IMG/VR virus record: IMGVR_UViG_3300006305_000183
Span: 1 to 26,699 of that record
Strand: one strand, 5' to 3'
Length of the DNA stretch: 26,699 nt
Source: a virus
The position numbers and the translations under genes are program-made. Below, one piece after another: positions 10,001 to 26,699 of the stretch. The notes below the pieces were generated by a model. That model was not told the origin of the DNA. It worked only from the letters and a program-made list of their open reading frames with translations, and did not search any database. Numbering within the stretch: the stretch's first letter is position 1; every line of letters begins with the position of its first letter.

Positions 10001-10294
10001 TTATGATGGTTCTTTTGGCCAAGTAACTTTATTTACTTTGTCCTCAGTATCTAATCCATTTGTCAAATCTCTTAACTCTTGTCTATAAGTTTTCCAAGAA
10101 GAACTCATACTTACATCAGAGTTGGCCATCCAATCTGATTGTGCAAGTTTATTATTTCTTTCCATTCTTAAACCAGCAATCGCTCTATCGTAAGCACCTT
10201 TTGCCCACTCTACATCTCTTGCTTCAAGTTCTTTTATTTCTGTTTCGGTCAAAGGTACTTTTTCACCATTAACCATTTTATGTGTGTATGCCAT
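10001..10294 (-). CDS. Tail fibre/tail assembly chaperone-like protein (Phage_tail_APC type)
   Basis: This is a 97-aa soluble protein. The second half has RMERNNKLAQSDWMANSDV, then SWKTYRQELRDL and an end of VTWPKEPS. The order RN..L..SDW....D, W..YRQ.LRDL and terminal WP..P is the familiar pattern of the Phage_tail_APC / fibre-assembly chaperone family. The first half (VPLTETEIKELEARDVEWAK) is charged and helical. Such genes usually sit directly after the fibre they help fold. Here it follows the 312-aa fibre protein by 19 bases and precedes gp8. AGGAGAT lies just before the start. The family assignment is by motif, and a chaperone role for the neighbouring fibres is inferred. Confidence 0.7.
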   Translation of the reverse strand: MAYTHKMVNGEKVPLTETEIKELEARDVEWAKGAYDRAIAGLRMERNNKLAQSDWMANSDVSMSSSWKTYRQELRDLTNGLDTEDKVNKVTWPKEPS

Positions 10295-10313: not shown

Positions 10314-11252
10314 TTACTTTGACAATCCATATATAGTCGCATATCCAGTCATTGTTCCAGACGCTGGATATATTTTAAAATAATTTTGTTTTGTTTCTAA
10401 TTTAAGTTCACCACCACCTTCCCAAGTATAATCAGAACCTTGTGCGTTTATATTTGCATTAACTTTAATCCATTTATATCCAGTTGTTTCTCTAAAGTTT
10501 TGTAATCTAATAGACATTACAAGAACATCACCAGTTTGATTGCCTGGACTCCAACCAGTTGACATATAGTTTGATGAAGTTACCTTACTACCACCAGATG
10601 ATGATGTATCGTTTCTTGAATGTTGATATGCAAAAGTTGTAGTATAACTATTTGTTACACCATTGTCTGGACTTATTTGAAATTGCAATCCAGCATTTGC
10701 AGAAAATATTAGTTTAGTTTCAACTAAATAAGTAAGATAAGTATCAGTAATTAATGTGTCACCAAACTCTACACTAGATGAACCAGAGAAATCTGAATGT
10801 GATAGTTTAACCAATCCACCAGCACTTCCAAATTCAAATCCAGTTCCAGCACTATCAACTTTAAGTGCAGTGCCAGCAGAACCTAATGTATTAATATTAA
10901 ATAATCCTATTTTATCTACAAAAGTTTCATCATATAATATTCTGTGATTTGCATTTGAACTAGAACCATCAGTACCATCTAAAACTAAAAAATCACCAGC
11001 GTCTGCCGTTCCGTTTGTGGAATTTAAAATGATAGAATCTGATGAAATATTATTTACTGCGGCTGATTGTAACTCATCACGAGTGATTGCACTAGAAGCT
11101 ATTTCTGTTGAACCAACTGCATCATTTGGAATTTTTGCAGAGGTAACATTATCATCTAAAATCTTTGCAGTAGTGACAGCATTGTCTGCAATCTGTGTTG
11201 TTGAAATCGTTCCAGATTGTATTGCACCTACTGGTATTTTACTTATTGGCAT
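10314..11252 (-). CDS. Short tail fibre protein (312 aa)
   Basis: The N-terminal part (about 1-65) consists of fibre-shaft repeats, ADNAVTTAKILDDNVTSAKI followed by PNDAVGSTEI, a pattern common in marine phage fibres. Residues 75-108 hold two DGTD-type units (STNGTADAGDFLV, then LDGTDGSSSNANHRILYDE), also found in four-plus other places in this window. The C-terminal two thirds are beta-rich without cysteine and end in GTMTGYATIYGLSK, similar to the K/A-x-LYG-L/V ends of the MGTL paralogues. The ATG follows the stop of the 55-aa gene directly. This indicates a trimeric short fibre with a globular tip. Receptor specificity cannot be read from sequence. Confidence 0.75.
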   Translation of the reverse strand: MPISKIPVGAIQSGTISTTQIADNAVTTAKILDDNVTSAKIPNDAVGSTEIASSAITRDELQSAAVNNISSDSIILNSTNGTADAGDFLVLDGTDGSSSNANHRILYDETFVDKIGLFNINTLGSAGTALKVDSAGTGFEFGSAGGLVKLSHSDFSGSSSVEFGDTLITDTYLTYLVETKLIFSANAGLQFQISPDNGVTNSYTTTFAYQHSRNDTSSSGGSKVTSSNYMSTGWSPGNQTGDVLVMSIRLQNFRETTGYKWIKVNANINAQGSDYTWEGGGELKLETKQNYFKIYPASGTMTGYATIYGLSK

Positions 11253-11454: not shown

Positions 11455-11760
11455 TTATTTCCATTGTAAAGACACTCCGTGTATTTTATTATTATTTTCA
11501 AGAGATGCACCAACTATTTTCCAACGAAGTTGTACTTGTGGTGACGCACTTCCAGTTAATGGAGTAGTACCACTAAAAATCTTAATACCACTTGACCCAG
11601 CAGAATATCCCTCATCTGTTAATGTAACAGAATTAAATGTTGTATTATCTCTAGTTACACTTGCATTAATCTCTGAATTTATATCATCAGCAAGTTCTGC
11701 AAATATTACAATTCGTGCTGTACTTGGCGTTGCGTTTGCAGTAAATGTATCGGATATTAA
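11455..11760 (-). repeat. Conserved C-terminal bookend, copy B
   Basis: It encodes about 100 residues that match the end of the upstream paralogue (13300-13605), with shared runs such as SATRDNTTF/SVTRDNTTF and TPLTG-x-ASPQVQ-x-RWKIVG. The similarity drops abruptly in the glycine-rich centre. Confidence 0.7.
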
Positions 11761-13296
11761 AGTCATAGAAGTGTTAGTAACAGTTGCATCAAATTGTAAA
11801 AATACTGCACCATCAGCACCATTAATTGGATTTGATTTAGTTGGGTTTGCACCATCACCTACAACTGGTGCATTGTCATCAAACAAAGTTCTTCCAGATG
11901 CTGGTAAAGTAGGATATATATCTGTTTTGAATGCAGCTTCGTGATTTATTGGACTTGATGGAAAAATTGGATTATCTTTAGTAATTGAAGGGGCAGGAAC
12001 TAGAGATGTGTCGTGATAACCAGCACCACCACCAGATTTACCAGAGTGTCCTACACCACTATTCCAACCATCTCCACCACCTCTGTAACCAGAACCGCCG
12101 CCACCCATATCATACTGTCCAGGCGAAGGTGGATTATAAGCTGCACCACCTCTAAAATATTGTGCAGGCCAAGATATACCGTCTCCTGCTTGAGTTGTAG
12201 AACCAGTTCTACCACTACCTTTAGCACCAACAGATGGAGAAGTTGGTGAAGGGTCGTAAGGTGATGTTGGGCCTCTTCCTCCACCACCAGATGCACCCTC
12301 TGGATATGAAACTGAACTAATTGTTTGAGAACCATCACCACCTCTTCTACCTTGACTAAAATCTCCAGCAGAACCACCAGTATGTGGTGCATATATATCA
12401 CCAGCCCCACCACCGACTGCAAGAACAGTTAAAGGTGCAGAACCAGGCGTTGCAGTTCCACCGTGACCAGGCCCTGCAGCTGGTGTTCCTTGTGGATTTG
12501 AAAAAGGAGAAGGGCCACTATCATCAACAAAAACCATACAGCCTGGTTGAATTGTTGCCTCACCATTAAATATGACAGATGCACCACCACCTTGAGCGTG
12601 AACTCCGTGTCCACCACCACCTATACCACCAGTTGGTAATTGAGGAGTTGCATTTTTATAACCACCACCAGCAACCATTATATCCCAAGTTGTTCCTCCC
12701 ATTTCTGGGTCGTTGATTGTTGCCTTTACAGAACCACCAGCACCACCATTATTAGGGCCGCCTGGATATGAACCACCACCTCCACCTATTAATGTTGCAG
12801 TACACGAAGTTGTTACACTAGGCCAAGTTATATTTGCAAAACTTGTAAGTTGTGTTGCTTTGTAGTAATTAGTTGAAGAAGTATATTGGGGATATGAAGT
12901 TGTATCTGCAATCGCTTGTGCTTCTGTTGCACCAACAACTTGTGCATTGTAAGTTAAAATTGGTGCTTGAGATGGATCAGCAAGATGAGCAGTGCTTGTA
13001 GTTAATAATAATTCAACATTATTTACTTGTTGATTTGCGAAAAAATCTCCAGATGAATCATATATTGTATTTGTACTTTCAGATGTGTCTACACCAGTGT
13101 TATCGTGAAATTCGTCTACTACACCATCTATCAGATTGAATACAGTTAAACCATCATTGACTGCAAGTTTAAAACCTAAAACACCAATATTAAATGCATT
13201 ACTATCTATTGCACCAGAAGGATTTAAACTTGTTTGTAATTTTGATTCAGTGATATCACCATCTTTGATATTAATACCATCAACTCTTGTTGTCAT
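11455..13296 (-). CDS. Glycine-rich adhesin/tail fibre, copy B (613 aa)
   Basis: This protein has three regions. Residues about 1-90 (IKDGDITESKLQ, then SNAFNIGVLGFKLAVNDGLT) form an attachment domain. Residues about 160-450 are rich in glycine runs (LIGGGGGSYPGG, GGGGHGVHAQGGGA, MGGGGSGYRGGGDGW), like the glycine-rich domains used by phage adhesins for receptor contact. The last 100 residues (starting FTANATPSTARIVIFAELAD and ending KIHGVSLQWK) form a conserved beta domain. Both ends are close matches to the neighbouring 544-aa protein while the middle differs, so the pair arose by duplication. GGGGATAA, part of the neighbour's stop, serves as the ribosome site. A receptor-binding role is inferred from the family type. 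Confidence 0.78.
   Translation of the reverse strand: MTTRVDGINIKDGDITESKLQTSLNPSGAIDSNAFNIGVLGFKLAVNDGLTVFNLIDGVVDEFHDNTGVDTSESTNTIYDSSGDFFANQQVNNVELLLTTSTAHLADPSQAPILTYNAQVVGATEAQAIADTTSYPQYTSSTNYYKATQLTSFANITWPSVTTSCTATLIGGGGGSYPGGPNNGGAGGSVKATINDPEMGGTTWDIMVAGGGYKNATPQLPTGGIGGGGHGVHAQGGGASVIFNGEATIQPGCMVFVDDSGPSPFSNPQGTPAAGPGHGGTATPGSAPLTVLAVGGGAGDIYAPHTGGSAGDFSQGRRGGDGSQTISSVSYPEGASGGGGRGPTSPYDPSPTSPSVGAKGSGRTGSTTQAGDGISWPAQYFRGGAAYNPPSPGQYDMGGGGSGYRGGGDGWNSGVGHSGKSGGGAGYHDTSLVPAPSITKDNPIFPSSPINHEAAFKTDIYPTLPASGRTLFDDNAPVVGDGANPTKSNPINGADGAVFLQFDATVTNTSMTLISDTFTANATPSTARIVIFAELADDINSEINASVTRDNTTFNSVTLTDEGYSAGSSGIKIFSGTTPLTGSASPQVQLRWKIVGASLENNNKIHGVSLQWK
13027..13296 (-). repeat. Conserved N-terminal bookend, copy B
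   Basis: It encodes about 90 residues matching those of 14665-14934: both contain NAFNIGVLGFK-x-AVN-x-GLT and DGVVDEF. Nearly identical DNA is visible around 13180-13220 and 14820-14860. Confidence 0.7.
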
Positions 13297-13299
13297 AAC

Positions 13300-13605
13300 T
13301 TATCCCCATTGTAATGCAACACCGTGTATTTTATTTTCAGCAGTTTGATTACTACCAACAATTTTCCAACGAACTTGTACTTGAGGACTTGCAGTTCCAG
13401 TTAATGGAGTAGAACCAGTAAATATTTTTGTACCACTACTACCACTTACATAACCAGTATCTGTTAATGTGATTGCATCAAAGGTTGTATTATCTCTTGT
13501 TGCAGAAACTGCTACATCTGTATTTAAATCGTCATTTATCTCTGCAAATAAAACTATTCTTGCTTTTGTTGGCACTGAGTTTGCAGTAAATGTATCTGAT
13601 ACTAA
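13300..13605 (-). repeat. Conserved C-terminal bookend, copy A
   Basis: Partner of 11455-11760. The protein match is dense over about 100 residues. The DNA also matches visibly in places, for example around TTAATGGAGTAG near 11560 and 13403. Confidence 0.7.
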
Positions 13606-14934
13606 TGTACTACTTGCAGATGAAGTTAAAGACTCCATTTCTAATACGACTAGTTGTCCACTACCACCTAAACCACCTCTTTTATCTGCATATGAACCAC
13701 CTGGCCCTCCACCAAAAGAACCACCTCCACCACCAGTATTTGCAACACCATCTTCACCTCTAGCATTTTCTGCTGGAGATTTAGTTGGGCCTGGTTGATG
13801 ACTTCCGTCTCCACCACCTCCAACACCACCTTCAACTTTAGCGCCTGGAGCATAAGAACCACCACCTCCACCACCACCGACATAACCATCTGGATGACCA
13901 TAACCAGCAGGAAACCAATTTAATTGTGGGTTGGGAGGCCCTACTGCAATACCAGCACCTCCAGTACCACCAACAGATGGTGGTGCATCACCACCTACGG
14001 CACCAGCGCCACCTCCTCCACCGCCACCATAATTAGAGCCTGGACGAATTTCACCACCATCAAATCCTTGTTGTGTGAAATCACCAGCAGGATGTCTATT
14101 TTCTCCAGTTTCACCTTCACCTACTACACCTTCACCTTGCCCGCCACCACCACCAGAACCGCCTGGAGCACCATCTGTGTATTCTAGGCCAGGAAATAAT
14201 GGGTCAGAACTGGGTTCACTATAAGTATATGCGTGACCACCACTTCCACCACCCTCTGCTAAGACAGTAGGGCCAAAAGTTGTATCTGCGCCTGGTTTAG
14301 AACGAGTACCAGGCGGTGAAGAAAATGGTGAGTAAGTTACCCACTCTGTGGGTCTTGAAGGGTGTGCAGAACCAACTGCTGGATAAGATGGGTGATTAGG
14401 TACAAAATGACCCTCACCACCAGCACCAACATTTACTGCAACACCAGAACCACCAGTTACTGGAACATCAGCATCTAAAAATACACCACCAGCACCACCG
14501 CCGCCGCCGCCTCCATTACCAGGCCCAGAACCACCACCAGCACCTCCGCCACCAAGTGCAAAAACTTTAACGACAGTTGTTGTAGGTTCAACACTATATG
14601 TGCTAGGCCCAGTTGATGTTATTTGAGTTAAAGATGCTTGTGGAGATGGAATAGGATTAGGGCCATCTAAATTTGAATAGAAATCGGAACTTGAATCATA
14701 TTTTGCAGTTACATTTTCTGATGTGTCTATACCACTTTCACTGTTAAACTCATCAACGACACCATCAACTAAATTAAAGATTGTTAAACCTTCATTGACT
14801 GCAATTTTAAATCCTAATACACCAATATTAAAAGCATTACCATCTGTTGCACCACTTGACTTTGCAGCTGCATTTAAATCATCTGTTGTAACTGAACCAT
14901 CGGTAATATTGTCACCAGTAATTTTTGTAGTCAT
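13300..14934 (-). CDS. Glycine-rich adhesin/tail fibre, copy A (544 aa)
   Basis: This is a paralogue of the next gene in the operon. The N-terminus (about 1-90) has NITDGSVTTDDLN, then GNAFNIGVLGFKIAVNEGLT and FNLVDGVVDEFN. The glycine-rich centre (about 128-435) begins VVKVFALGGGGAGGGSGPGN and includes VAVNVGAGG and many GGGG runs, matching the general layout of phage glycine-rich domains in which a short beta strand leads into glycine loops. The C-terminus (about 447-544) has FTANSVPTKARIVLFAEIND, then GTKIFTGSTPLTG and an end of HGVALQWG. The middle is more glycine-dense than copy B and lacks its PSPF and QPGCMVF segments. AGGATAA precedes the ATG and merges with the upstream TAG. It is likely a receptor-binding fibre tip. 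Confidence 0.78.
   Translation of the reverse strand: MTTKITGDNITDGSVTTDDLNAAAKSSGATDGNAFNIGVLGFKIAVNEGLTIFNLVDGVVDEFNSESGIDTSENVTAKYDSSSDFYSNLDGPNPIPSPQASLTQITSTGPSTYSVEPTTTVVKVFALGGGGAGGGSGPGNGGGGGGGAGGVFLDADVPVTGGSGVAVNVGAGGEGHFVPNHPSYPAVGSAHPSRPTEWVTYSPFSSPPGTRSKPGADTTFGPTVLAEGGGSGGHAYTYSEPSSDPLFPGLEYTDGAPGGSGGGGGQGEGVVGEGETGENRHPAGDFTQQGFDGGEIRPGSNYGGGGGGGAGAVGGDAPPSVGGTGGAGIAVGPPNPQLNWFPAGYGHPDGYVGGGGGGGSYAPGAKVEGGVGGGGDGSHQPGPTKSPAENARGEDGVANTGGGGGSFGGGPGGSYADKRGGLGGSGQLVVLEMESLTSSASSTLVSDTFTANSVPTKARIVLFAEINDDLNTDVAVSATRDNTTFDAITLTDTGYVSGSSGTKIFTGSTPLTGTASPQVQVRWKIVGSNQTAENKIHGVALQWG
14665..14934 (-). repeat. Conserved N-terminal bookend, copy A
   Basis: Partner of 13027-13296 in the neighbouring paralogue. 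It shares the attachment-domain residues and the ACACCAATATTAAA word on the plus strand, at about 14819 in this copy and about 13180 in copy B. Confidence 0.7.
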
Positions 14935-14943
14935 TTAATTATC

Positions 14944-15741
14944 CTATACTACTAAATATCTGACACCAATCTGTACTGTATTTGCTGGTGCAGTTGTAAA
15001 AGTTAAAGTTGTACCAGACACACCATAATCGGTGGTTGGTTTTTGAACAATTCCATTCTCTGTTACGATAACACTATTTACTGTATGTCCTGCTGTAATT
15101 GTAAATGCAGTTGTAGAACCATCACCAGTAAAATATGATGATGAATAAGTAAATGCAGCTTTAGCATTTGTTACCGAATCGTCTTGAAGTTTTGCAGTAG
15201 AGATTGCATTATCACTCACACTTCCTATATTAATCTCATTTGTCGTAGATAAATGAACCACCACTATAACAGCAGCTGTCCCTGGCGCAGAAGTAAAAGT
15301 TATTGTAGAACCAGAAATTGAAAAGTTGGTTGTATATTTTTGAAACACACCATTTACAAATGCTATTACAGTTGATGATGGATTTTGAGGAACTCTTGAT
15401 AAAGTAAAACCAGTTGTTGAATTATCACCAGTAAATGTATCTACGGTTGGAGTTGTATCTGTAACTGCTCTTGCAGAAACTAATTGTTGTCTACCAAGAT
15501 AAACTACAAAACATCTTACAGAGTTTGCTGGTGCTGATGCAAATGTAATTTTTTGAGAACCACTAACCATTGCAATATCATATGCACTACCTGGCTCTTG
15601 AATAACACCACCTAAAGAAACAATAATAGAAGTTGCAGAAGCAACTGTGTGGGTTAAAGTAAATTGTGTAGTTGAACCATCACCAGTAAAGATGTCTTTT
15701 TCAAATGCACCAAACGAAGGTTCTTTTCCAATATATGCCAT
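14944..15741 (-). CDS. Tail fibre protein with three FTGD repeats (265 aa)
   Basis: The protein is almost entirely three copies of a roughly 60-residue beta repeat: residues 18-82, 103-164 and 204-263. Each opens with FTGD(G/N)STT-x-FT-(L/I), continues with a V-NG-V-x-Q-x-P-type strand, then TFTSAP, and ends in a V-x-YL or VVVHL strand. This unit is common in fibre and tail-spike proteins of marine and T7-like phages. Residues 165-203 are a linker holding the shaft motif SDNAISTAKLQDDSVTNAK. The N-terminus MAYIGKEPSFGAFEKD is also typical of these proteins. The gene lies downstream of the XkdW-like gene by three bases, with AAAGGATAA acting as both stop and ribosome site. A virion fibre is likely. 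Confidence 0.78.
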   Translation of the reverse strand: MAYIGKEPSFGAFEKDIFTGDGSTTQFTLTHTVASATSIIVSLGGVIQEPGSAYDIAMVSGSQKITFASAPANSVRCFVVYLGRQQLVSARAVTDTTPTVDTFTGDNSTTGFTLSRVPQNPSSTVIAFVNGVFQKYTTNFSISGSTITFTSAPGTAAVIVVVHLSTTNEINIGSVSDNAISTAKLQDDSVTNAKAAFTYSSSYFTGDGSTTAFTITAGHTVNSVIVTENGIVQKPTTDYGVSGTTLTFTTAPANTVQIGVRYLVV

Positions 15742-15744
15742 TTT

Positions 15745-16020
15745 TTATCCTTTAGGGTACTTGTCTTTAATCGCTTTAATTTTTGTTTTCCAACTATCAA
15801 TTCCATTATGATAAATTTCATCTAGTTGGTCTACGATACTTGGATACTCATCTGCTCTTTTATATTGATATTCATTAGGGTCTTTCCAAGCATTAACCTT
15901 TGTCCAATCAACAGTAACTTCTTTGTTATCTTTATCAGTTGCAATAATAGTTTTTTCTGTACTACCATTTATGGTTACTACTGAGGTATGTATTGCTCTT
16001 ATTGCTTTATGTAAATCCAT
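15745..16020 (-). CDS. XkdW-like small tail-associated protein (91 aa)
   Basis: The protein opens MDLHKAIRAIHTSVVTINGS and has two notable stretches: VTVDWTKVNAWKDPNEYQYK and YPSIVDQLDEIYHNGIDSWK, with a final IKAIKDKYPKG. The YPSI..QLD.IYH segment followed by a helix ending in KDKYPK is the hallmark I associate with XkdW-like and fibre-adjacent proteins in marine phages. It is soluble and highly charged, with no cysteines. Its ATG overlaps the end of the 170-aa fibre gene by one base. A tail-assembly accessory or chaperone role is inferred from its position between fibre genes. It differs in sequence from the other chaperone-like protein at 10001-10294. Confidence 0.65.
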   Translation of the reverse strand: MDLHKAIRAIHTSVVTINGSTEKTIIATDKDNKEVTVDWTKVNAWKDPNEYQYKRADEYPSIVDQLDEIYHNGIDSWKTKIKAIKDKYPKG

Positions 16021-16532
16021 TATCCTCTCACTTCCATTAAAATTATTGATGATGCAGTTCTTGCTATAGTTGAATTATCTGAATCTGCTTGAGTTTTGTT
16101 TATCGTACCAGTTCCTGCTTGTACTTTATATTGTAACTTGTATGTTGTTGCAGATGTTGTACTTGGTGAGTCTAAAAAATTAAAAGTAAGAGTTAAACTA
16201 GAATTGGTGTCATTTATTCTTGATTGAGCAGATGCTTGTGCGTGTGAACTGTCTGCATCACCAATAAATATGTCTGTACTACCTCTGACTAATTTCATCA
16301 TTCCATTATTACCACCACTTGTTGATGTATTAGAACTTACCATTACTAACACTTTACTTGATGTACTTGATGGTGTTATAGTTGCAGAAAATCCAGTTAC
16401 ATCTGTATACGAGGTGCTTGTTGTAGAAAAATCATCTGTTTTAGAAGTTTGAACAACTTGTAATATTGTACCAACCGATGTAACTGACCCAGAACCTTTT
16501 AAGTTTAAATTATCTACTGTTAATGTTCCCAT
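16020..16532 (-). CDS. MGTL-family fibre tip protein, third copy (170 aa)
   Basis: It starts MGTLTVDNLNLKGSG, the same short N-terminal anchor as the two genes before it (MGTLKVDNLQ and MGTLKVDNIQ). The remainder is a beta-rich domain with LQVVQTSKTDDFSTTS, then SYTDVTGFSATITPSS and SSKVLVMVSS. This is a pattern of small jelly-roll-like phage fibre heads with a final SSIILMEVRG. The body does not resemble the other two MGTL bodies. The ATG overlaps the preceding stop (one base, TAATGG-like junction). A small receptor-contact or fibre-tip protein is inferred. Confidence 0.72.
   Translation of the reverse strand: MGTLTVDNLNLKGSGSVTSVGTILQVVQTSKTDDFSTTSTSYTDVTGFSATITPSSTSSKVLVMVSSNTSTSGGNNGMMKLVRGSTDIFIGDADSSHAQASAQSRINDTNSSLTLTFNFLDSPSTTSATTYKLQYKVQAGTGTINKTQADSDNSTIARTASSIILMEVRG
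16510..16532 (-). repeat. 5-prime cassette repeat, copy 3 (diverged)
   Basis: These 23 bases at the gene start match copies 1 and 2 with two differences. They encode the conserved MGTL-x-VDN anchor of the MGTL family. Confidence 0.75.
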
Positions 16533-17158
16533 TATGTTACTCCGTATAATTTCATTTTACCACTCGTGAAAGTTCCAGTTGATAATTCTATTTTTATGTG
16601 AGTATGATTAGATGATGAATTACAAAATGCACTTCCAACTGTTCTACATTTTGCCATACCAGATGGATGCACATGACCAGTATGATAATTCAAAGATGGA
16701 TATGTTCCGCCTGTGATAAATAACCGACCATCACAAAGTTCGCCAGTACCTCCACCCCACTGATTAGCACCATAGTGCAAAGATATATGGGCGGCACTGC
16801 TTGGATTACTTGCTACAGTATAATGAGCATTAGAGTAAACTGTTGTGTCCATTGAGTGTGAATAGACAGAACTCGTAGTAAATGTGTCAACTGCTGTACC
16901 AAAAGTTATATTCAAATTTGAACCAGCAGCTGTACTATGAACTAGTCTAATTAAATCAAGTATACAAACATCATTAGTTGAAATGTCAAATATTGCCGAG
17001 GTTGCACCACTTGATATTGTTGTGTCTGTTAATAATACCATACCAACACCAGCACTTTTTAATGATGCGTTAGAAAGTAAAGTTGTTGATGCAGCTCCAT
17101 CTGTGATGAGTGCAGTACCATCTCTTTTTTGTAAGTTATCTACTTTTAATGTACCCAT
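16532..17158 (-). CDS. MGTL-family fibre tip protein, second copy (208 aa)
   Basis: The N-terminus MGTLKVDNLQKRDGTALITD is the shared anchor. The rest is distinct. It contains a histidine-rich stretch around residues 155-190 (LNYHTGHVHPSGM, then FCNSSSNHTHIKIEL) and three cysteines further along. It ends GTFTSGKMKLYGVT, echoing the end of the first copy (LAGTFKLYGLV). The pairs of histidines (HTGHVH, HTH) could bind metal, as in some trimeric fibre tips that hold iron through H-x-H motifs, including T4 long-tail-fibre gp37. That is inference from pattern only. The start overlaps the previous stop by one base. Confidence 0.72.
   Translation of the reverse strand: MGTLKVDNLQKRDGTALITDGAASTTLLSNASLKSAGVGMVLLTDTTISSGATSAIFDISTNDVCILDLIRLVHSTAAGSNLNITFGTAVDTFTTSSVYSHSMDTTVYSNAHYTVASNPSSAAHISLHYGANQWGGGTGELCDGRLFITGGTYPSLNYHTGHVHPSGMAKCRTVGSAFCNSSSNHTHIKIELSTGTFTSGKMKLYGVT
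17136..17158 (-). repeat. 5-prime cassette repeat, copy 2
   Basis: The 23 bases here are identical to 17759-17781 and two bases different from 16510-16532. They cover the start codon and the next six to seven codons of the MGTL anchor. Confidence 0.85.
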
Positions 17159-17781
17159 TACACTAATCCATAAAGTTTAAATGTTCCTGCTAACACATTT
17201 CCACTTGAACAATAAAATGATATATAATTTATAACTGAGGTGTTATTAAAAACCATTCCATTTATGTCACCACCATAATAATTTGTATCATCACTATAAT
17301 CAGTTACATAATGACCAAAAAAACTTTTATGACCACCACCACTCACAGTTAAATTATTAAAACGAAATTCATAACAACTTCCTTTGCCTGCAGCGTTATT
17401 CATATAAAATCCGTGATTATAATATCCAGAATTATTTGATGAACCACTAGAATCTGCACCAGTTTGAGTTTTACCACCAGAACTTCTTGCACCATAACTT
17501 TCAGAAAGAAATGAACTTCCATTATCAGCAGAAAACTTAAAACTTAAAGATGCTTGGTCTGTTACTGGTCTCAAATTGTTTATTACCACATAATAAGATT
17601 CATAGTCAGTTGTAATCACACTACTATCAAAATTAATACTAGCAGAAGAAGATGCTGTTTGTGTTGAAAGTAATGTAAAACCAACATTAGAACTTCTTAA
17701 TTGTGCAGCTGGAATCGCACCGTTAGTAATGATTGCACTACCAGATTCAGTTTGTATATTATCTACTTTTAATGTACCCAT
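17158..17781 (-). CDS. MGTL-family fibre tip protein, first copy (207 aa)
   Basis: It starts MGTLKVDNIQTESGSAIITN, an anchor common in marine phage fibre proteins, followed by PAAQLRSSNVGFTLL. The body (about 35-195) is a beta-sandwich-like domain with INFDSSVITTDYESYYVVIN, SFKFSADNGSSF, a glycine/serine/tyrosine-rich loop (SSGSSNNSGYYNHGFYMN) and SCYEFRFNNLTVSGGGHKSF. The pattern resembles the phage fibre-head domain with an F-D-x-x-Y-x-x-Y-x-x-x-I-N-N-L-R-P motif. It ends VLAGTFKLYGLV. AGGTAGA lies before the start, nine bases after the 128-aa gene. A receptor-binding role is inferred. Confidence 0.74.
   Translation of the reverse strand: MGTLKVDNIQTESGSAIITNGAIPAAQLRSSNVGFTLLSTQTASSSASINFDSSVITTDYESYYVVINNLRPVTDQASLSFKFSADNGSSFLSESYGARSSGGKTQTGADSSGSSNNSGYYNHGFYMNNAAGKGSCYEFRFNNLTVSGGGHKSFFGHYVTDYSDDTNYYGGDINGMVFNNTSVINYISFYCSSGNVLAGTFKLYGLV
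17759..17781 (-). repeat. 5-prime cassette repeat, copy 1
   Basis: It is identical over 23 bases to 17136-17158. Similarity ends soon after the anchor, so each gene has a conserved head and its own body. Confidence 0.85.
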
Positions 17782-17790
17782 AAAATCTAC

Positions 17791-18177
17791 CTAAAGTATA
17801 ACAACATCTCCCTCTATTGTCAATGTATTACCAGAAGTAACCGTAAGGGGCCCAACTGCCATTGCATTGACTCCTTGAGGAATCGTAAGTGTTTCATTTA
17901 AAAATTTAGTGTTTGCTCTAAACTGTGCTGATTGTCCAAAAGATTGAGGAATGGCATTTGCATCTAGGACATCATCGTGTTGAACTTTATCACCAGCATT
18001 AGCACCAGCACCGTCTGTGCCATCAAGAATTAAATTATCACCAGCATTTGAACCTCCACCATCTGTTCCGTCAAGTATGACATTTACAGATGCACCGAGA
18101 CTAACTGATGCATTAATCTTTGCAGTTGTGATGGCACCGTCTGCGATACCATCAGTTGGAAGTTGAAAGACGGCCAT
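17791..18177 (-). CDS. Small virion protein with DGTD repeats (128 aa)
   Basis: The N-terminus (about 1-30) has LPTDGIADGAITTAKINASV, a fibre-shaft motif. Residues 33-65 are two perfect-looking copies of a 16-residue unit: VILDGTDGGGSNAGDN and LILDGTDGAGANAGDK. The C-terminus (about 95-128) is LTIPQGVNAMAVGPLTVTSG followed by NTLTIEGDVVIL, a tail seen in other phage fibre/decoration proteins. It is soluble and lacks cysteine. The gene starts eight bases after the 303-aa fibre gene, with AGGATAA as ribosome site. It is probably a small fibre or collar-type virion protein whose DGTD units form a beta-solenoid-like shaft (inference). Confidence 0.72.
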   Translation of the reverse strand: MAVFQLPTDGIADGAITTAKINASVSLGASVNVILDGTDGGGSNAGDNLILDGTDGAGANAGDKVQHDDVLDANAIPQSFGQSAQFRANTKFLNETLTIPQGVNAMAVGPLTVTSGNTLTIEGDVVIL

Positions 18178-18185
18178 AATTTATC

Positions 18186-19097
18186 CTATGATACGGTTGC
18201 ACCATTTACTGAAACTACATTCCAGTTTGAACCATTGTATATTAAAATAACACTTTCACCAACAGCATTAAATAAAATACTTGATGGTACATTGGTAGAG
18301 TTTAAGTTACCATTTGATTGTGTCATTGTTGCATTGTTACCAGCAACGGTCATAATGATTATTTTTCTTTGGCCAACAAAACGACCAGCAGAAAGAGTAA
18401 GTGATGCAGTACCACTAGCAGTATTTAAAAGTGATACTTCAATATCATCATCTAGTGCGTTAGAACCACCAGCACCAGTGATGGTTTCACTTGCAGAACC
18501 TTGAAGTGTTGATGTTTTGTTTGGTAGTGTGACTGTAACATTACCAGCATATACAGCGTGAGCTGGAGATTCTATTGCAACATAGTGTGCATTTGAACTC
18601 TCACAATATAATCTCACTTGTGATTTTGCACCACTATTCTTTATATCAATAATACCAGTTGTAAAAATGATATCATCATCACCATTTATTTTAAAGTGAA
18701 TAGTGTCGTCTGTATCGGCAGTAATAGATGTATCAGCGTCTGCATCTAAAACTAATTCTTTACCATTAAGGTCAAGTTTAGTTGCAGTCATCTGAAATAT
18801 ATCAGCACCACCTATTTTGAAATCTATTGTATCATCTGAATCAGCAGTGATTGAAGTATCTGCATCAACATCTAATATTAGTTCAGAACCATTTAAGTCT
18901 AAACTTGTGGCGATTACTGGTGCAGTCAAAGTTACTACTGTTGCAGTTGCACTAAGACCACTTGTTAGTGCAGAACCAGTACCTAATAATGTGTACAGTT
19001 CTACAAAGTTATCGTTTACCTTGTCACCTCCAGCTCTGAGGGTATCGCCTGTCCCATCATTTGCTGAACTTCCAAGTCCGATAGATTGATATGCCAT
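18186..19097 (-). CDS. Tail fibre protein with duplicated LDLNG repeat (303 aa)
   Basis: The N-terminus, SIGLGSSANDGTGDTLRAGG followed by KVNDNFVELYTLLG, is a widespread attachment domain of marine T4-like phage fibres. Residues 66-103 and 108-145 are two copies of a 38-residue unit, LDLNG-x-EL-x-LD-x-DADTSITAD and then DDTI-x-FKI-x-G-x-D, a repeat I recognise from many marine phage structural proteins. The C-terminal part (about 215-303) has LSAGRFVGQRKIIIMTVAGN and ILFNAVGESVILIYNGSNWN, a beta domain common in such fibres. It is the first gene of the fibre block and is preceded by the best late promoter in the window (19123-19130) and AGGAGAT. Confidence 0.8.
   Translation of the reverse strand: MAYQSIGLGSSANDGTGDTLRAGGDKVNDNFVELYTLLGTGSALTSGLSATATVVTLTAPVIATSLDLNGSELILDVDADTSITADSDDTIDFKIGGADIFQMTATKLDLNGKELVLDADADTSITADTDDTIHFKINGDDDIIFTTGIIDIKNSGAKSQVRLYCESSNAHYVAIESPAHAVYAGNVTVTLPNKTSTLQGSASETITGAGGSNALDDDIEVSLLNTASGTASLTLSAGRFVGQRKIIIMTVAGNNATMTQSNGNLNSTNVPSSILFNAVGESVILIYNGSNWNVVSVNGATVS
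18663..18902 (-). repeat. Two copies of a 38-residue coding repeat
   Basis: It encodes residues 66-103 and 108-145 of the 303-aa fibre. The two units differ by about a dozen residues, and words such as ACTAATTCTTTACCATTAAG and AGTTCAGAACCATTTAAG on the plus strand are visibly related. Confidence 0.75.
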
Positions 19098-22674: not shown

Positions 22675-24572
22675 TAGTAACCACTTGAAGAACTAGTTCC
22701 AGTAGAAATATAAGATGTAGAAGTATCAGCAGTTGTAACAGCAGCTGATGTTGTCGCAACAGATGAACCAGAACTTGAGGTTGCAGTATCTACCTTTCCT
22801 TCAATAGTTGAATTAGGTAAATCTATTTCTAATATATTGTTTCTCAAAGGTATAATATCTGGAGATGATGGGACTGCAACTATTCTAATTTGTGTAGATG
22901 TTGCACCATCAACATTAGATATACTTGTTATGTTTGCACTAGGTATAGATACTTTACCAGCAATATAATCAACAGTACCAAAATTTGCATCTACAATAGT
23001 CTTCGTTGTACCAACAAAATAATAAGTTCTTAACGCACCGTCTTTATCATCAATAAAAAGTTCATTATCATCTCCACTTATTTTAAATCCAGTTGACGAT
23101 ACGACAGCTTCGTGACCACTATGTGGATTGTATATTGAGTTACCAAAATTTACTTCGTATGAAGAGTTAGTGTTAAGAGTTGGTGTTATTTTTTTAGACA
23201 TTTGAATAGTAGTTACATTAGAAGTTATTGAATTATCAGTATCATCTATTTGTCCAATTAAATCTGAAAATCTAAATTGTGAATTAAATTGTTCTAAAGT
23301 ATTTGCACTATAAGTTGTGAGAGTAGTTGTTACTAATGCAATTAAATCATTAACAGTTTTTGTAGTGATTGTAGAATTATATTTAAAATTAGTAGTCAAT
23401 CTAATTTGAATAGTTTCTGGGTCAACTATTTCTGTTCTTATAGATGCAACATTATAAGGTTTTAAAGAATTTTGTATTGTGGTCTTTTGAGAATTTGTTA
23501 ATGTATTACCGTCAATAGTCTTTATTGATATATAAACCACTCCATATTTTGGTGGGTCATTATCCTCACCACCCCAAACTGAAACAGCTGCAGTATCTGG
23601 AAAAACTTGTCTTACAAATACTTTATAATCATTTACTGTTACTGCTCTATTTTGTGCAGAGTAATCTAAAGGTGCATTAAATTTAATACTATCAATAGTT
23701 TCTCTTGTTGCACCACCAGAGGCTGCACTTGTTGTTGTAACAGTATATGCAGTAGAACCACCAATCTGAGAAGAACCAGTAAGACTAGTTGCACCGTTAG
23801 CTAAAGTTTCGTTAGTAACGATATATTCTAAAATAACTATATTACCATCAGATAATTTTTTACCTATTACACCATCACCAAATAATATTTCGTGTTGTCC
23901 GTCTTCAACCTCTTGTACAAAGTATATATTAGAAGTAGATGTTGCTTGAACTATGTCAGCAGATTCTGTATATGTTTGAGTAGTAGAATCAGTAGATGAG
24001 TTTTGTACAGTTATTTTAAGGGTTGACATATCTGCTTTTACATCTGGTATAATAAATCTTTGGTCAACATTATCTGCATCAACAGTATATCTTGTTGTAA
24101 TTAATGTCCCTTCAAATACTTCTAATCCTTCAAACCTTAATACATTATTTTCTCTAGATTTTGTAACTGCTTCATTTGTAATAAAAAAGTATGGAACATT
24201 ATTAAGAGATGATTGAAAAGAAAATCCTTTTGGTATTGTTGCAGTTGATATACCAGTGACTGCATTAATCTCCACATTAATTATAGCTTTAGGTGCTCGT
24301 GAACTTCTTACTTTATAACCTAATAGTTTTGCGTGTGATACAACTGAAGAACGAAGTTGTGCAGTATCAAGAAACATTTCATTACCCATAAGGTTTGCGT
24401 TCATAGCTTGATAGTGCGTGTTGTATGCAAGAACATCTAATAAGATATTCATACCAGACCCTTCAAAGTCGTAGTCTGTAAATTCTGTTTGATTTTTTAG
24501 AAATGTTTTTAAATTATTTTTAATACCATCAAAGTCTAATTCTGTAATTCTTAATCTTTCTTTATTTGCCAT
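22674..24572 (-). CDS. gp6: Baseplate wedge protein gp6
   Basis: The protein is 632 aa, close to T4 gp6 (660 aa). The N-terminus is ANKERLRITELDFDGIKNNL, then GSGMNILLDVLAYNTHYQAM and a conserved helical block. Around residues 222-250 it has the LFGDGVIGKKLSDGNIVILE segment, the FGDG..G....DG..... motif shared by the gp6 / Mu gp47 (baseplate J) superfamily. Around 297-318 it has APLDYSAQNRAVTVNDYKVF, again typical. The C-terminal tail is Ser/Thr-rich. In T4, gp6 forms the ring that connects wedges around the hub. The ATG overlaps the stop of gp25 by one base. The assignment is secure at family level. Confidence 0.92.
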   Translation of the reverse strand: MANKERLRITELDFDGIKNNLKTFLKNQTEFTDYDFEGSGMNILLDVLAYNTHYQAMNANLMGNEMFLDTAQLRSSVVSHAKLLGYKVRSSRAPKAIINVEINAVTGISTATIPKGFSFQSSLNNVPYFFITNEAVTKSRENNVLRFEGLEVFEGTLITTRYTVDADNVDQRFIIPDVKADMSTLKITVQNSSTDSTTQTYTESADIVQATSTSNIYFVQEVEDGQHEILFGDGVIGKKLSDGNIVILEYIVTNETLANGATSLTGSSQIGGSTAYTVTTTSAASGGATRETIDSIKFNAPLDYSAQNRAVTVNDYKVFVRQVFPDTAAVSVWGGEDNDPPKYGVVYISIKTIDGNTLTNSQKTTIQNSLKPYNVASIRTEIVDPETIQIRLTTNFKYNSTITTKTVNDLIALVTTTLTTYSANTLEQFNSQFRFSDLIGQIDDTDNSITSNVTTIQMSKKITPTLNTNSSYEVNFGNSIYNPHSGHEAVVSSTGFKISGDDNELFIDDKDGALRTYYFVGTTKTIVDANFGTVDYIAGKVSIPSANITSISNVDGATSTQIRIVAVPSSPDIIPLRNNILEIDLPNSTIEGKVDTATSSSGSSVATTSAAVTTADTSTSYISTGTSSSSGY

Positions 24573-25015
24573 TATCTTATTCTCTCTAGTATAAACTCAA
24601 ATGATATTAGTTCGGTTGTTGCATTAATAATAAAAAAATCTAATCTGACATTGTAAGCATTTCTGTCTATGTCTGGTGTGCAATCAACTCTGTGTATTAG
24701 AATTCTTGGTTCGTGTGTTTCTAAAACATTTGTAATATTGTGAGTTAATACTCCAGCAGTTAATGTGTTTAAAGGTTCAAATAAAGATTGTCTAATATTA
24801 GAACCTATCTCTGGATGAAAAGGTTTTTCATAATGATTGATTGATATAAGATTTCTAACACTTCTTTTGATTGCCTCTACATCTGTAACTTTAGTAATAT
24901 CTTTAGTAACTGGATTCTGATTAAAGTTTAAACTCAAATCCTTAAAGATACGATTACTTCGTTTTTCATTATTTATTTGTGCATCAAATAATAAATTACC
25001 AGTTGTTAGTGCCAT
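24572..25015 (-). CDS. gp25: Baseplate wedge protein gp25
   Basis: This is a 147-aa protein of the GPW/gp25 family (T4 gp25 is 132 aa). The hallmark order is present: a helical segment with IKRSVRNLISINHYEKPFHP, then EIGSNIRQSLFEPLN (about 70-83) and the conserved EPR triplet at 102-104 within HEPRILIHRVD. In contractile tails gp25 joins gp6 and gp53 in the wedge core and contacts the sheath. It sits between the PAAR gene and gp6, the expected place. TAGGATAAG before the ATG merges the upstream stop with the ribosome site. Confidence 0.92.
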   Translation of the reverse strand: MALTTGNLLFDAQINNEKRSNRIFKDLSLNFNQNPVTKDITKVTDVEAIKRSVRNLISINHYEKPFHPEIGSNIRQSLFEPLNTLTAGVLTHNITNVLETHEPRILIHRVDCTPDIDRNAYNVRLDFFIINATTELISFEFILERIR

Positions 25016-25023
25016 ATCTTATC

Positions 25024-25341
25024 CTATCCACCAGCAAATACTGTTGTATTTTTTCTACAAAGTAACGCAGTAGTACAAGGAGGTACAAGAGTATCTGTTA
25101 ATCTTCCAACATTTGAACCTTCTGCAAAAACAGTTGATGAACCAAAGGCTATAGTCATTGAGTGCTTAGGACAAGGTTCACCATTATATTCATGGAAACT
25201 ATTGATACCTTGTGCAATGGTTCTGACTGGAGCTCCGTGAGTTAAAACTGTTCCACAACCGTCCATTACAGTTCCTTGGCCTGGACAAGGTGGTGGATGT
25301 GGTGTATCTAAATCACCTATGTTATGAATTAATAATCCCAT
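25024..25341 (-). CDS. PAAR-type spike tip protein (gp5.4-like)
   Basis: This is a 105-aa protein with PAAR-family features. A Pro/His/Cys-rich start (DTPHPPPCPGQGTV, about 12-25) is followed by GAPVRTIAQG and HSMTIAFGSSTVFAEGSNVG, then RLTDTL and a final TTVFAGG. Candidate metal ligands are His15, Cys19, His50, Cys57 and His60. Its length fits T4 gp5.4 (97 aa). PAAR proteins cap the gp5/VgrG needle and sharpen the membrane-piercing spike. A gp5-like needle gene lies about 1 kb upstream in the same operon, which supports the call. AAGGAA precedes the ATG, with a late-promoter-like AATAAATA at 25359-25366. It is notable for six cysteines, more than most PAAR tips I know. Confidence 0.88.
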   Translation of the reverse strand: MGLLIHNIGDLDTPHPPPCPGQGTVMDGCGTVLTHGAPVRTIAQGINSFHEYNGEPCPKHSMTIAFGSSTVFAEGSNVGRLTDTLVPPCTTALLCRKNTTVFAGG

Positions 25342-25358
25342 AAATATTCCTTTTTAAC

Positions 25359-25366
25359 TATTTATT
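25359..25366 (-). promoter_or_regulatory. Candidate late promoter (AATAAATA) before the PAAR gene
   Basis: The minus strand reads AATAAATA, one base from TATAAATA, in the 27-base spacer before the PAAR gene and 17 bases from its ATG. It could add a transcript for PAAR, gp25, gp6 and gp7-like genes. Evidence is positional. Confidence 0.35.
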
Positions 25367-25368
25367 AC

Positions 25369-26187
25369 TTATGGATGATAGGGTGAATAATAATTACCAA
25401 CAAATGCTGGTGCAAAAGAAAAATCATTTACTACATCGTGTGATAACATAAATGTTTTACATTCAGTTGGTTGTTTAATTTCGTGTTCTGTTGTCACCCC
25501 AGTGATAGGGTCAGTTTCTGATACGGTTTCCGTTTTAAAAAAACAGACAGTCACATTATATAAAAAAGTATATGATGATGTAGTATCTTGATTAAAAGTA
25601 ACAAGATTATAAGCTATACCATTTACAGATGTATCTTCTACTGTTGACGGCATTAAGTCTATACCTTTTAACTCAGTTTCATCTAACCTATTATCTTTAC
25701 TTTCTTCTCTAGGTAAAAAAAATCCAATATCATTAAACTTACGACTATAAAATCCAGATGTTGTTGCAGAAGTAACTCCATTTGTTATTGTAATGTCTGG
25801 TTCAGTATCTGCGACATAATCTTCGTATATTAATTTATCAAGATTAGATTGTACTTCATCACTATCATTTGTTGCATCTTCTAATAATAAAGTTGCATCT
25901 TCTACTGCACTTTCTCTTAATACTTTATCTCCAGCATCTGCACCAGAAAGATTAGTACCATCAAGTAATAAATTAGAACCATCTTCTAATATTATAGTAT
26001 CAGTAGATGCAGTTGTGCCAGGTTCTAAAACTAAATTGAAAAATTCTCTTTGTAATGTAAGTGTTGTAGATACTATTGTTTCTTGAGGGCCAGGACTTGC
26101 AGTAACAGTTCTTGAAAATGTTTCACTATGTCCACTTAATACTCTAGTTACATCTGCAAATTTTGTTGCTGGTGATATTGTTACCAT
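25369..26187 (-). CDS. Virion structural protein of unknown function (272 aa)
   Basis: I chose the start MVTISPATKF at 26187 rather than the upstream ATG at 26214, because that ATG lies inside the neighbouring 45-aa gene, while 26187 forms a one-base TAATG overlap like other junctions here. The protein has an N-terminal beta region (VTRVLSGHSETFSRTVTASP). It then has a DGTD-type unit (about 72-91, NLLLDGTNLSGADAGDKVL) with leucine/acid-rich LLEDATNDSDEVQ downstream. The C-terminal beta-rich part has KFNDIGFFLPREESKD and TFLYNVTVCFF and ends VGNYYSPYHP. I do not recognise a named family. Its place between gp5 and PAAR suggests a hub-associated or baseplate structural protein. Confidence 0.75.
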   Translation of the reverse strand: MVTISPATKFADVTRVLSGHSETFSRTVTASPGPQETIVSTTLTLQREFFNLVLEPGTTASTDTIILEDGSNLLLDGTNLSGADAGDKVLRESAVEDATLLLEDATNDSDEVQSNLDKLIYEDYVADTEPDITITNGVTSATTSGFYSRKFNDIGFFLPREESKDNRLDETELKGIDLMPSTVEDTSVNGIAYNLVTFNQDTTSSYTFLYNVTVCFFKTETVSETDPITGVTTEHEIKQPTECKTFMLSHDVVNDFSFAPAFVGNYYSPYHP

Positions 26188-26324
26188 TATCCTTGTCCAC
26201 GATACTTCTTCCAACTTCTTCTTTTATGTTTATTCATAGTTGAAGTTTTAACTCTACCTCTACCAATAGATGTTCTTTTAAAAGTAGGTTCATAGACTGA
26301 CATTGTGTGCATTTTTTTAGCCAT
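26187..26324 (-). CDS. Small basic protein (45 aa) between needle and baseplate genes
   Basis: Reading from the ATG at 26324 gives 45 residues, starting MAKKMHTMSVYEPTFKRTSI and ending KKYRGQG with TAA at 26187-26189. It is strongly basic (many K/R). I recall a very similar small protein next to the baseplate genes in marine T4-like phages, with TFKKTSIG, VKTSTMNKHKRRS and YRGQG segments, so this is probably a conserved gene. AGGAGAA lies upstream with suitable spacing. A role in the virion or as a nucleic-acid/peptidoglycan-binding factor cannot be decided from sequence. Confidence 0.72.
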   Translation of the reverse strand: MAKKMHTMSVYEPTFKRTSIGRGRVKTSTMNKHKRRSWKKYRGQG

Positions 26325-26333
26325 AGTATTCTC

Positions 26334-26699
26334 CTAGTTCAAGTCAATTCTTGGTGCAGTCACTTTATAATTACCACCAGCAGTGTGAGTTATTTTTGCA
26401 CCAGCTTTATTTGTTATCGCAGCACCAGCTTTCTCAGATATAAATCCACCAGCAGTATGAAGTATTGCACCTCCAACTGTGTTCATTTGAGCACCACCTA
26501 TTGTATTGGTTTCAGCTGCACCAACAATTTTAGTTCTAGCTGCAGCAATATTTAAAGAGTCTGTGGAATATATCATTGTATTTCGTGAACCTTTAATAAC
26601 TTCTGTTTTATTTCCGTCAACTTGTATATTCCAGTTACCTTTAATATATGTGTTACAGTTTTGGTCAATCGTTAAATTACAAGTTCCTTTTATGTTTAC
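26334..26699 (-). CDS. gp5: Baseplate hub needle gp5-like, C-terminal beta-helix (N-terminus beyond window)
   Basis: The frame stays open from the TAG at 26334-26336 to the window edge (121 codons). The true start is therefore outside, and the internal ATG at 26576 should not be used. The visible part has an interrupted repeat of short strands: NIKGTCNLTIDQNCNTYIKG, NWNIQVDGNKTEVIKG, SRNTMIYS, then KIVGAAETNTIGGAQMNTVG and GAILHTAGG. It ends PRIDLN. This periodic V-x-G-x-x-x-x-x-V-x-G/(N)-type sequence is the signature of the trimeric beta-helix needle at the end of T4 gp5 and VgrG-like proteins. A PAAR tip gene follows about 1 kb downstream. The lysozyme and OB-fold domains of gp5 would be upstream and cannot be checked. 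Confidence 0.85.
   Translation of the reverse strand, partial: VNIKGTCNLTIDQNCNTYIKGNWNIQVDGNKTEVIKGSRNTMIYSTDSLNIAAARTKIVGAAETNTIGGAQMNTVGGAILHTAGGFISEKAGAAITNKAGAKITHTAGGNYKVTAPRIDLN

Follow-up and report, generated by a model that had tools for sequence, protein, structure and literature searches.

The window analysed here is IMG/VR record IMGVR_UViG_3300006305_000183, a viral record of 26.7 kb whose genes run leftward on the minus strand. Directly downstream of a gene for a gp9/gp10-like baseplate connector lies an array of three adjacent genes, each starting with the same anchor, MGTL-x-VDN. We call the three positions slots A, B and C (Table 1). The first-pass annotation had described these three genes, and their open reading frames are confirmed at the coordinates in the table. 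It was also right about their starts: the first 23 nucleotides (nt), a 5′ cassette with the sequence ATGGGTACATTAAAAGTAGATAA, are the same in slots A and B and differ at two positions in slot C (GGT to GGA and AAA to ACA). The genes are indeed joined by one-base overlaps (TA-ATG), and slot C overlaps an accessory gene of 91 amino acids (aa) in the same way. In a repeat search the similarity of the 5′ ends reaches 65 nt, with 77% identity for A and B and 63% for C and B. This similarity is more than chance, because the MGTL anchor is kept in all nine complete arrays, those of the window and its relatives, and because the same codons for the same anchor peptide are expected only about 2% of the time (an estimate from codon-usage counts).

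Table 1. Features of the array and its surroundings in the window (G1 and G2, tip groups 1 and 2, see text).
Feature	Position	Strand	Remarks
gp9/gp10-like baseplate connector gene	18186..19097	-	T4_gp9_10_N, PF07880; phrog_677, baseplate wedge tail fiber connector
128-aa conserved gene, left border of array	17791..18177	-	conserved in relatives
Slot A gene, 207 aa	17158..17781	-	MGTLKVDNIQTESGSAIITNG connector, hinge SSNVGF, G1 tip from ~codon 33
5′ cassette, copy A, 23 nt	17759..17781	-	repeat comparison
Slot B gene, 208 aa	16532..17158	-	MGTLKVDNLQKRDGTALITDGAASTTLL..LKSAGVGM connector, then G1 tip with HxH motifs
5′ cassette, copy B, 23 nt	17136..17158	-	identical to copy A; repeat comparison
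Hinge motif AGTGCTGGTG (S-A-G-V)	17047..17056	-	start of slot B homology to other genes; 10-mer search
Slot C gene, 170 aa	16020..16532	-	short MGTLTVDNLN anchor, G2 tip, predicted TNF-like, from ~codon 21
5′ cassette, copy C	16510..16532	-	2/23 nt differ; repeat comparison
91-aa accessory gene	15745..16020	-	phrog_9114 (function unknown); putative chaperone
265-aa MAYIGKEP fibre-type gene	14944..15741	-	fixed right border in close relatives except L016/L017
Position D, Gly-rich fibre gene	13300..14934	-	shorter MTTRI.. genes instead in L003, L006 and L132
Position E, fibre gene, 312 aa	10314..11252	-	hinge 10817-10826, G1 tip from there
97-aa Phage_tail_APC chaperone gene	10001..10294	-	PF16778, Pfam match; adjoins position E gene

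Nine distinct complete arrays can be compared: the window, L001, L003, the L004 type, L006, L009, L014, the L016 type and L091 (L numbers denote relatives). In 9/9 there are exactly three MGTL genes, and they always follow the 128-aa gene. After the array come an accessory gene and the MAYIGKEP gene in all types except the L016 type. No array with a different number of slots turned up in a stricter scan with the anchor pattern or in a profile scan, and more distant relatives lack an MGTL array here. Relatives with other numbers of MGTL genes, which the first-pass annotation had suggested looking for, are thus absent among complete arrays, and slot gain or loss is unseen. The annotation had also held that a constant number and content of genes would speak against interchangeable tips. 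In the close group the number is constant at three; the content varies.

The slots differ in more than their order. Slot A starts with MGTLKVDN[IL]Q[KT]E[DS]G[TS]A and slot B with MGTLKVDN[LI]QKRDGTALITDG..LL..LRSAGVGM. Slot C starts with MGTLTVDNLN, and almost nothing is conserved past residue 10. From residue 8-9 onward the connector is particular to its slot in 9/9 complete arrays. Over 60 nt the identity within slots is 0.84, compared to a permuted mean of 0.71, and 0/5000 label permutations reach the observed value. The bodies behind the connectors also correlate with the slot (1/5000 permutations reaches the observed value), with many exceptions. The proposal of a single shared attachment site is weakened by these connectors: it fits the first 8-9 residues and not what follows. 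Slot-specific connectors therefore suggest three distinct sockets or an ordered assembly.

An ordered assembly is the main rival to the explanation we give below. Slots A, B and C could be consecutive parts of one composite or branched fibre, with the connectors as joints. Fixed order, fixed number and slot-specific connectors fit this idea, and the branched tailspikes of Ackermannviridae assemble via conserved N-terminal domains (PMC11414711). However, the first 8-9 residues are the same in all three proteins, and slot C carries almost no conserved sequence past residue 10. Furthermore, away from the array the slot C pattern hits an isolated MGTLTVDNLN gene next to a chaperone gene (L129:4624-5472; the same in L133, L138 and L140). 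This MGTLTVDNLN gene lies between a gp5-like gene and the PAAR gene, upstream of PAAR and gp25, on contigs that end before the array position. We consider a composite fibre unlikely, though it deserves more weight than any other rival.

The C-terminal bodies, which we call tips, are found at several positions. Tip matches were identified in an all-against-all comparison and then followed at the DNA level. Slot C of L006 matches slot A of L001 and L004 over 457 nt that begin at nt 54/81 and run to the end (94-95% nt identity). Slot B of L091 matches position E of the window (90% over 518 nt, from nt 101/425); the G1 tip of position E is the one in slot B of both L091 and L013. In L014 slot B and position E match each other, again from nt 101/425. 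Position D of L006 matches slot C of L003 (88% nt, from nt 235/70); the MTTRI.. genes at position D of L003 and L006 carry G2 tips. Slot A of L010 and slot A of L006 both match slot B of L004 (90% nt from nt 87/108, and 83% aa, respectively). Each hybrid that was examined closely begins with a 5′ part near-identical to that slot in another phage and continues with sequence near-identical to a different slot. Interchangeable tips on a conserved attachment end, as had been proposed from the window alone, are strongly supported by these matches across positions.

Tips are permuted even between close relatives. L004 and L006 are 97.9% identical in the 1179-aa gene, 99.6% in the gp9-like gene, 98.7% in the 128-aa gene and 96.5% in the 265-aa gene; their tips differ in 3/3 slots. 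Two of the tips are present in both phages at different positions. The FQ tip occupies slot B in L004 and slot A in L006, and the LQQI tip, together with its chaperone gene, occupies slot A in L004 and slot C in L006. Exchange also takes place within a slot. Two alleles of the slot A connector (window 17719-17757), QKEDGTA and QTESGSA, carry the same FTLLSTQ tip when the window and L014 are compared with L009. Therefore connectors and tips recombine within a slot too.

The slot B tip of the window is also present in L086 and L087 (87% nt identity over 500 nt), behind the different N-termini MAILRANNN.. and MPLSKIQAE... There the match starts at nt 121-123, just past SAGVGM. Both contigs have HTVC010P-like neighbour genes. 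From these neighbours we infer that L086 and L087 are podophage-like, in which case the slot B tip crosses phage morphotypes.

Tips that change slot between phages with almost identical flanks could point to programmed variation, that is, to an invertible segment, a shufflon or a diversity-generating retroelement that rearranges the tips. Yet inverted repeats in the 8.3-kb region are weak and widely spaced (73-88% complementary), and no recombinase or reverse transcriptase is among the proteins annotated in the window, which covers only 26.7 kb of the genome. The differences affect whole domains instead of adenine-specific point changes. We regard programmed variation as very improbable. Alternatively, the fibre genes could have been duplicated and diverged vertically, with fast-evolving bodies and no exchange. 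The tips of slots A and B are homologous and possibly old duplicates. Vertical divergence is contradicted by the junctions, however: identity drops abruptly from ~97-100% to background inside one gene, and tips share 88-95% nt identity across slots and backgrounds. Of all explanations it is the one we find hardest to credit.

The junctions themselves lie at a glycine hinge. Tip homology starts at codons 18-41, beside the hinge, and all switch points are at most ~15 nt away from it (SAGVG, SGAG, SGVG, TAGG). The 10-mer AGTGCTGGTG, which encodes the hinge of slot B, occurs in slot B of eight loci (nt 103) and in position E of two (nt 427). The window holds three copies, compared to ~0.03 per strand expected by chance.

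A near-identical direct repeat in three genes makes the 23-nt cassette itself a candidate seed for tip exchange and for slot gain and loss, as the first-pass annotation had suggested. The cassette lies upstream of every junction. The junctions that were to be sought at the cassette are at the hinge instead, and the slot-specific stretch after the cassette stays with its slot while the tip changes. Unusual conservation of the cassette as DNA was considered and rejected: its synonymous conservation is 0.97/0.93/0.89 for slots A/B/C, similar to the starts of five flanking genes (0.93-0.96 in four, 0.89 in the fifth). Together with the constant slot number in complete arrays, this makes the cassette an improbable seed.

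The tips belong to separate families, and the claim that the three bodies are unrelated holds for slot C only. Group 1 (G1) comprises the tips of A, B and E, with a hinge VGM.. and the end ..LYGx. Group 2 (G2) comprises the tips of C and D, with the pattern GKILQV .. FLDSPxTTSAxTY .. LMEI. With the anchor removed, a profile built from the other A/B/E bodies recovers body B at E=9.6e-9 and, likewise, body A at 6e-26, but not body C. A and B align over their full length with 33% identity. Full-length homology, which would have spoken against unrelated bodies, is thus present between A and B and does not extend to C. A comparison of G1 and G2 tips with hhalign gives no relationship (0.1% probability for body C). 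The slot C tips of L001 and L004 fall into neither group.

Database matches point to fibres. phrog_14820 (unknown function) matches body A and a relative of body B, the L086 tip. Slot C matches phrog_6942, tail fiber protein, at E=3e-17 and is 46% identical to the tail fibre gene of P-SSP7. Pfam returns nothing above cut-off for the three MGTL genes. Searching 50,697 phage records by tblastn with the proteins of slots A and B gives nothing at E<0.01, for which a low-complexity filter is a possible cause; by direct comparison gp30-32 of HTVC010P are relatives of the slot A tip. Judged by their similarity to annotated fibres and by the fibre-operon context, slots A-C probably belong to the phage tail fibre or receptor-binding class.

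AlphaFold models of slots A and C are both all-beta, with low-confidence anchors. The slot C model matches the Pgp3 C-terminal domain (Z 11.8) and the BC2L-C and PLTL lectins (Z ~10.5). The slot C profile matches 'orf22' in PDB entry 9efk (9efk_AE residues 498-658) at E=4.3e-22, that is, the C-terminal 160 residues of a protein of 658 aa present in 18 copies. We thus predict a C-terminal tumour necrosis factor (TNF)-like jelly-roll domain for slot C, and for slot C only. The LQQI tip (L001:9317-9853) reaches 23.1 bits against the Pfam Pgp3 C-terminal domain, below the cut-off of 25, which is consistent with a TNF-like fold of the related slot C tip. The slot A model resembles GH32 C-terminal sandwiches (Z up to 9) and galectins (Z ~7). 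PDB matches of slot A to coronavirus spike N-terminal domains and GH32 C-terminal domains were set aside; their TM-scores are low and we read them as a generic beta-sandwich.

Some tips are linked to a small gene. The LQQI tip is followed by a 122-aa Phage_tail_APC gene in 5/5 distinct arrays (98-99% nt identity), four times in slot A and once in slot C. Other tips in slots A and C lack this gene. Phage_tail_APC (PF16778) scores 49.3 bits for the 122-aa gene and 52.2 bits for the 97-aa gene of the window (cut-off 26.6). In the family of the 91-aa accessory gene, only the L001 member matches XkdW (PF09636), and it lies behind the slot C tip of L001. L129, L133, L138 and L140 combine a tip related to that of L001 slot C with the MGTLTVDNLN anchor and an XkdW/phrog_9114-type gene. 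The linkage is clear, and going by the families of these genes some tips appear to bring a dedicated chaperone.

To explain these observations, we propose three positional sockets with interchangeable lectin-like tips that are swapped by recombination. On this view the virus, of the T4 type and pelagimyophage-like, has three short adhesins, one per gene, which are probably trimeric fibres of the tail or baseplate. Each adhesin would start with the MGTL-x-VDN anchor and a slot-specific connector of ~10-40 residues, continue through a glycine hinge and end in a beta-sandwich tip. Number, order and connector of the slots are fixed, and each fibre would sit in its own socket near the gp9/gp10-like connector and show its lectin-like tip. 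The tips would come from a pool common to the phage population, to other fibre genes and to unrelated phages. Recombination with co-infecting phages would exchange them, leaving visible junctions at the hinge, and a dedicated chaperone would move with the tip where the tip needs one. The outcome would be a combinatorial set, with three tips per phage. We consider this explanation probable. The slots, the exchange of tips, the places of the junctions, the link between tip and chaperone gene, and the tip families are observed. Attachment near the connector, trimerisation, sugar binding and an effect on host range are its deduced parts, as are the receptors and the location of the MGTL proteins on the virion.

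Several points weigh against this explanation. The junctions at the hinge could reflect selection at a domain boundary and not the sites of crossover; that recombination sets them is our interpretation. All relatives are metagenome contigs, so assembly chimeras are possible. For some arrays recurrence speaks against chimeric assembly: the L004 type is present in four independent records and the L016 type in two, and L003 and L134 agree in slots B and C. L006 is the hybrid that tells us most, and it comes from one contig of 10.2 kb. The junctions in L006 are intragenic and keep the reading frame, and each parent segment departs by several per cent from the copies we know of. A plain assembly chimera of these contigs would not be expected to look like this. 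Strict pairing of tip and chaperone is weakened by one exception, the KILQVQ tip: behind it L003, L014 and L134 have an MSYTRHE gene and L016 an MDLHKAIR gene. Confidence in the AlphaFold models is moderate: the predicted local distance difference test score is 71.5 for slot A and 69.2 for slot C, with anchors at ~50. For slot A the fold matches are near background (best Z 9.0, root-mean-square deviation 4.0 over 120 residues).

A stronger version of the socket explanation would be an active combinatorial system. Here three baseplate sockets, or five with D and E, would accept position-neutral, lectin-like tips and their chaperones, with frequent permutation at the hinge and exchange with podophages that infect the same hosts. 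Flanks of 96-99.6% identity with different tip sets would fit such a system. We hold this version to be doubtful.

From the left border outward the window encodes the 303-aa gp9/gp10-like connector, a 1179-aa wedge-type protein, a gp6-type wedge protein, gp25 and a PAAR-like protein. In the other direction the array is followed by the 91-aa gene, the MAYIGKEP gene, two Gly-rich fibre genes, a 55-aa gene, the position E gene, the Phage_tail_APC gene, a 505-aa wedge protein and a 2447-aa protein at the VrlC position. Baseplate wedge matches (phrog_219, 261 and 438) occur in a T4-like gene order, in regions syntenic with Pelagibacter phage HTVC008M and Methylophilales phage Melnitz. These are also the nearest isolates by gp25 (47% and 48% identity, respectively). 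By gene order and similarity, the window is from a T4-like marine myovirus of the HTVC008M/Melnitz type. At the array position both isolates have one or two fibre-type genes with other N-termini and no array. The gp9-like protein is 92-95% common to the window and its close relatives.

The region varies outside the array as well. The two Gly-rich fibre genes (11455-14934) are paralogous, with conserved ends and a variable Gly-rich middle. They are absent in L004 and L016, and L003, L006 and L132 have the short MTTRI.. genes instead. A second variable spot is at the tail tip: the PAAR-like gene and two genes upstream (24572-26576) differ strongly among close relatives, whose PAAR-like proteins have 105-145 aa. 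At 14944-15877, the end of the 91-aa gene and the start of the MAYIGKEP gene contain 160 nt that are 77% identical to podovirus HTVC010P, which suggests a host-recognition module common to morphotypes. A copy of the position E tip at 99% identity (L160:3001-3519) was not used. It lies in an odd context on a 4-kb contig, after neck-type genes and with no ATG at its start, and the contig is possibly chimeric.

Phages of SAR11 and OM43, which infect some of the most abundant bacteria in the ocean, are relatives of the pelagimyophage-type viruses, and little is known of the receptors and host-range determinants of the latter. The array provides a parts list of anchor, hinge, tip and chaperone, and tip swapping suggests how these viruses change the host cells to which they attach. 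Natural swap experiments are at hand, both in near-identical phages whose tips are permuted and in a tip that sits on three different anchors. Hence the matching of tips to receptors, slot specificity and chaperone specificity become directly testable. The hinge also suggests tip boundaries for annotating 'hypothetical' short fibre genes of marine phages.

Parts of this picture are established. It is well known that receptor-binding proteins are modular, keeping their N-termini and swapping their C-termini (PMC10684548). Also known are the transfer of a fibre with its chaperone (PMC10579305), a TNF-like short fibre with a chaperone (PMC9608196) and host-recognition islands in marine phages (PMC3909814, PMC7029224). 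In the myophage Pam3, the simplified tail fibre and chaperone gp24-gp25 combine a short trimer, which docks by its N-terminus and has a TNF-like domain, with a small chaperone gene of its own (PMC9608196). Unlike the array this system involves one fibre only, whose docking domain is helical and whose tip domain is rich in glycine. In Alteromonas phages A5 and V22 a fibre and its cognate chaperone are exchanged jointly between unrelated phages (PMC10579305). There each phage has one module, whereas here tip and chaperone also change slot within the array.

Ackermannviridae carry several receptor-binding proteins with conserved N-terminal domains, among them gp10-like linking domains, and variable C-termini (PMC11414711). 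Theirs are large enzymatic tailspikes with XD, TD and anchor domains, whereas the anchors here have 8-40 residues and the tips are lectin-like. Pfam and PHROGs find no XD/TD (gp10-like) domains in slots A-C; the gp9/gp10-like N-terminus is a separate upstream gene. The pelagimyophage host recognition cluster (PMC7029224) and marine metaviromic islands (PMC3909814) concern the same phage group, in which host-recognition genes vary among close relatives. The pelagimyophage cluster lies between VrlC and gp14, whereas the array is part of the baseplate operon, between the gp9-like gene and a gp8-type wedge gene, and variation is resolved here to tip, hinge and slot.

The closest arrangements are the tandem fibre genes (166-217 aa) of podovirus P-SSP7, Pelagibacter phages Lederberg and HTVC010P, and Melnitz. 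Like the array they mostly have overlaps of 1-4 bases or short gaps, G1 or G2 tips, short N-termini (several M-x-x-L-x-V-D/N) and a shared small chaperone-like gene. Their N-termini, however, differ from each other within each array, and the literature we found describes neither a slot-specific anchor family nor tip permutation for them. As far as that literature goes, what is new here is a three-slot array in the baseplate operon with very short slot-specific anchors, the reshuffling of tips over the slots of near-identical phages, and junctions located at the level of the hinge.

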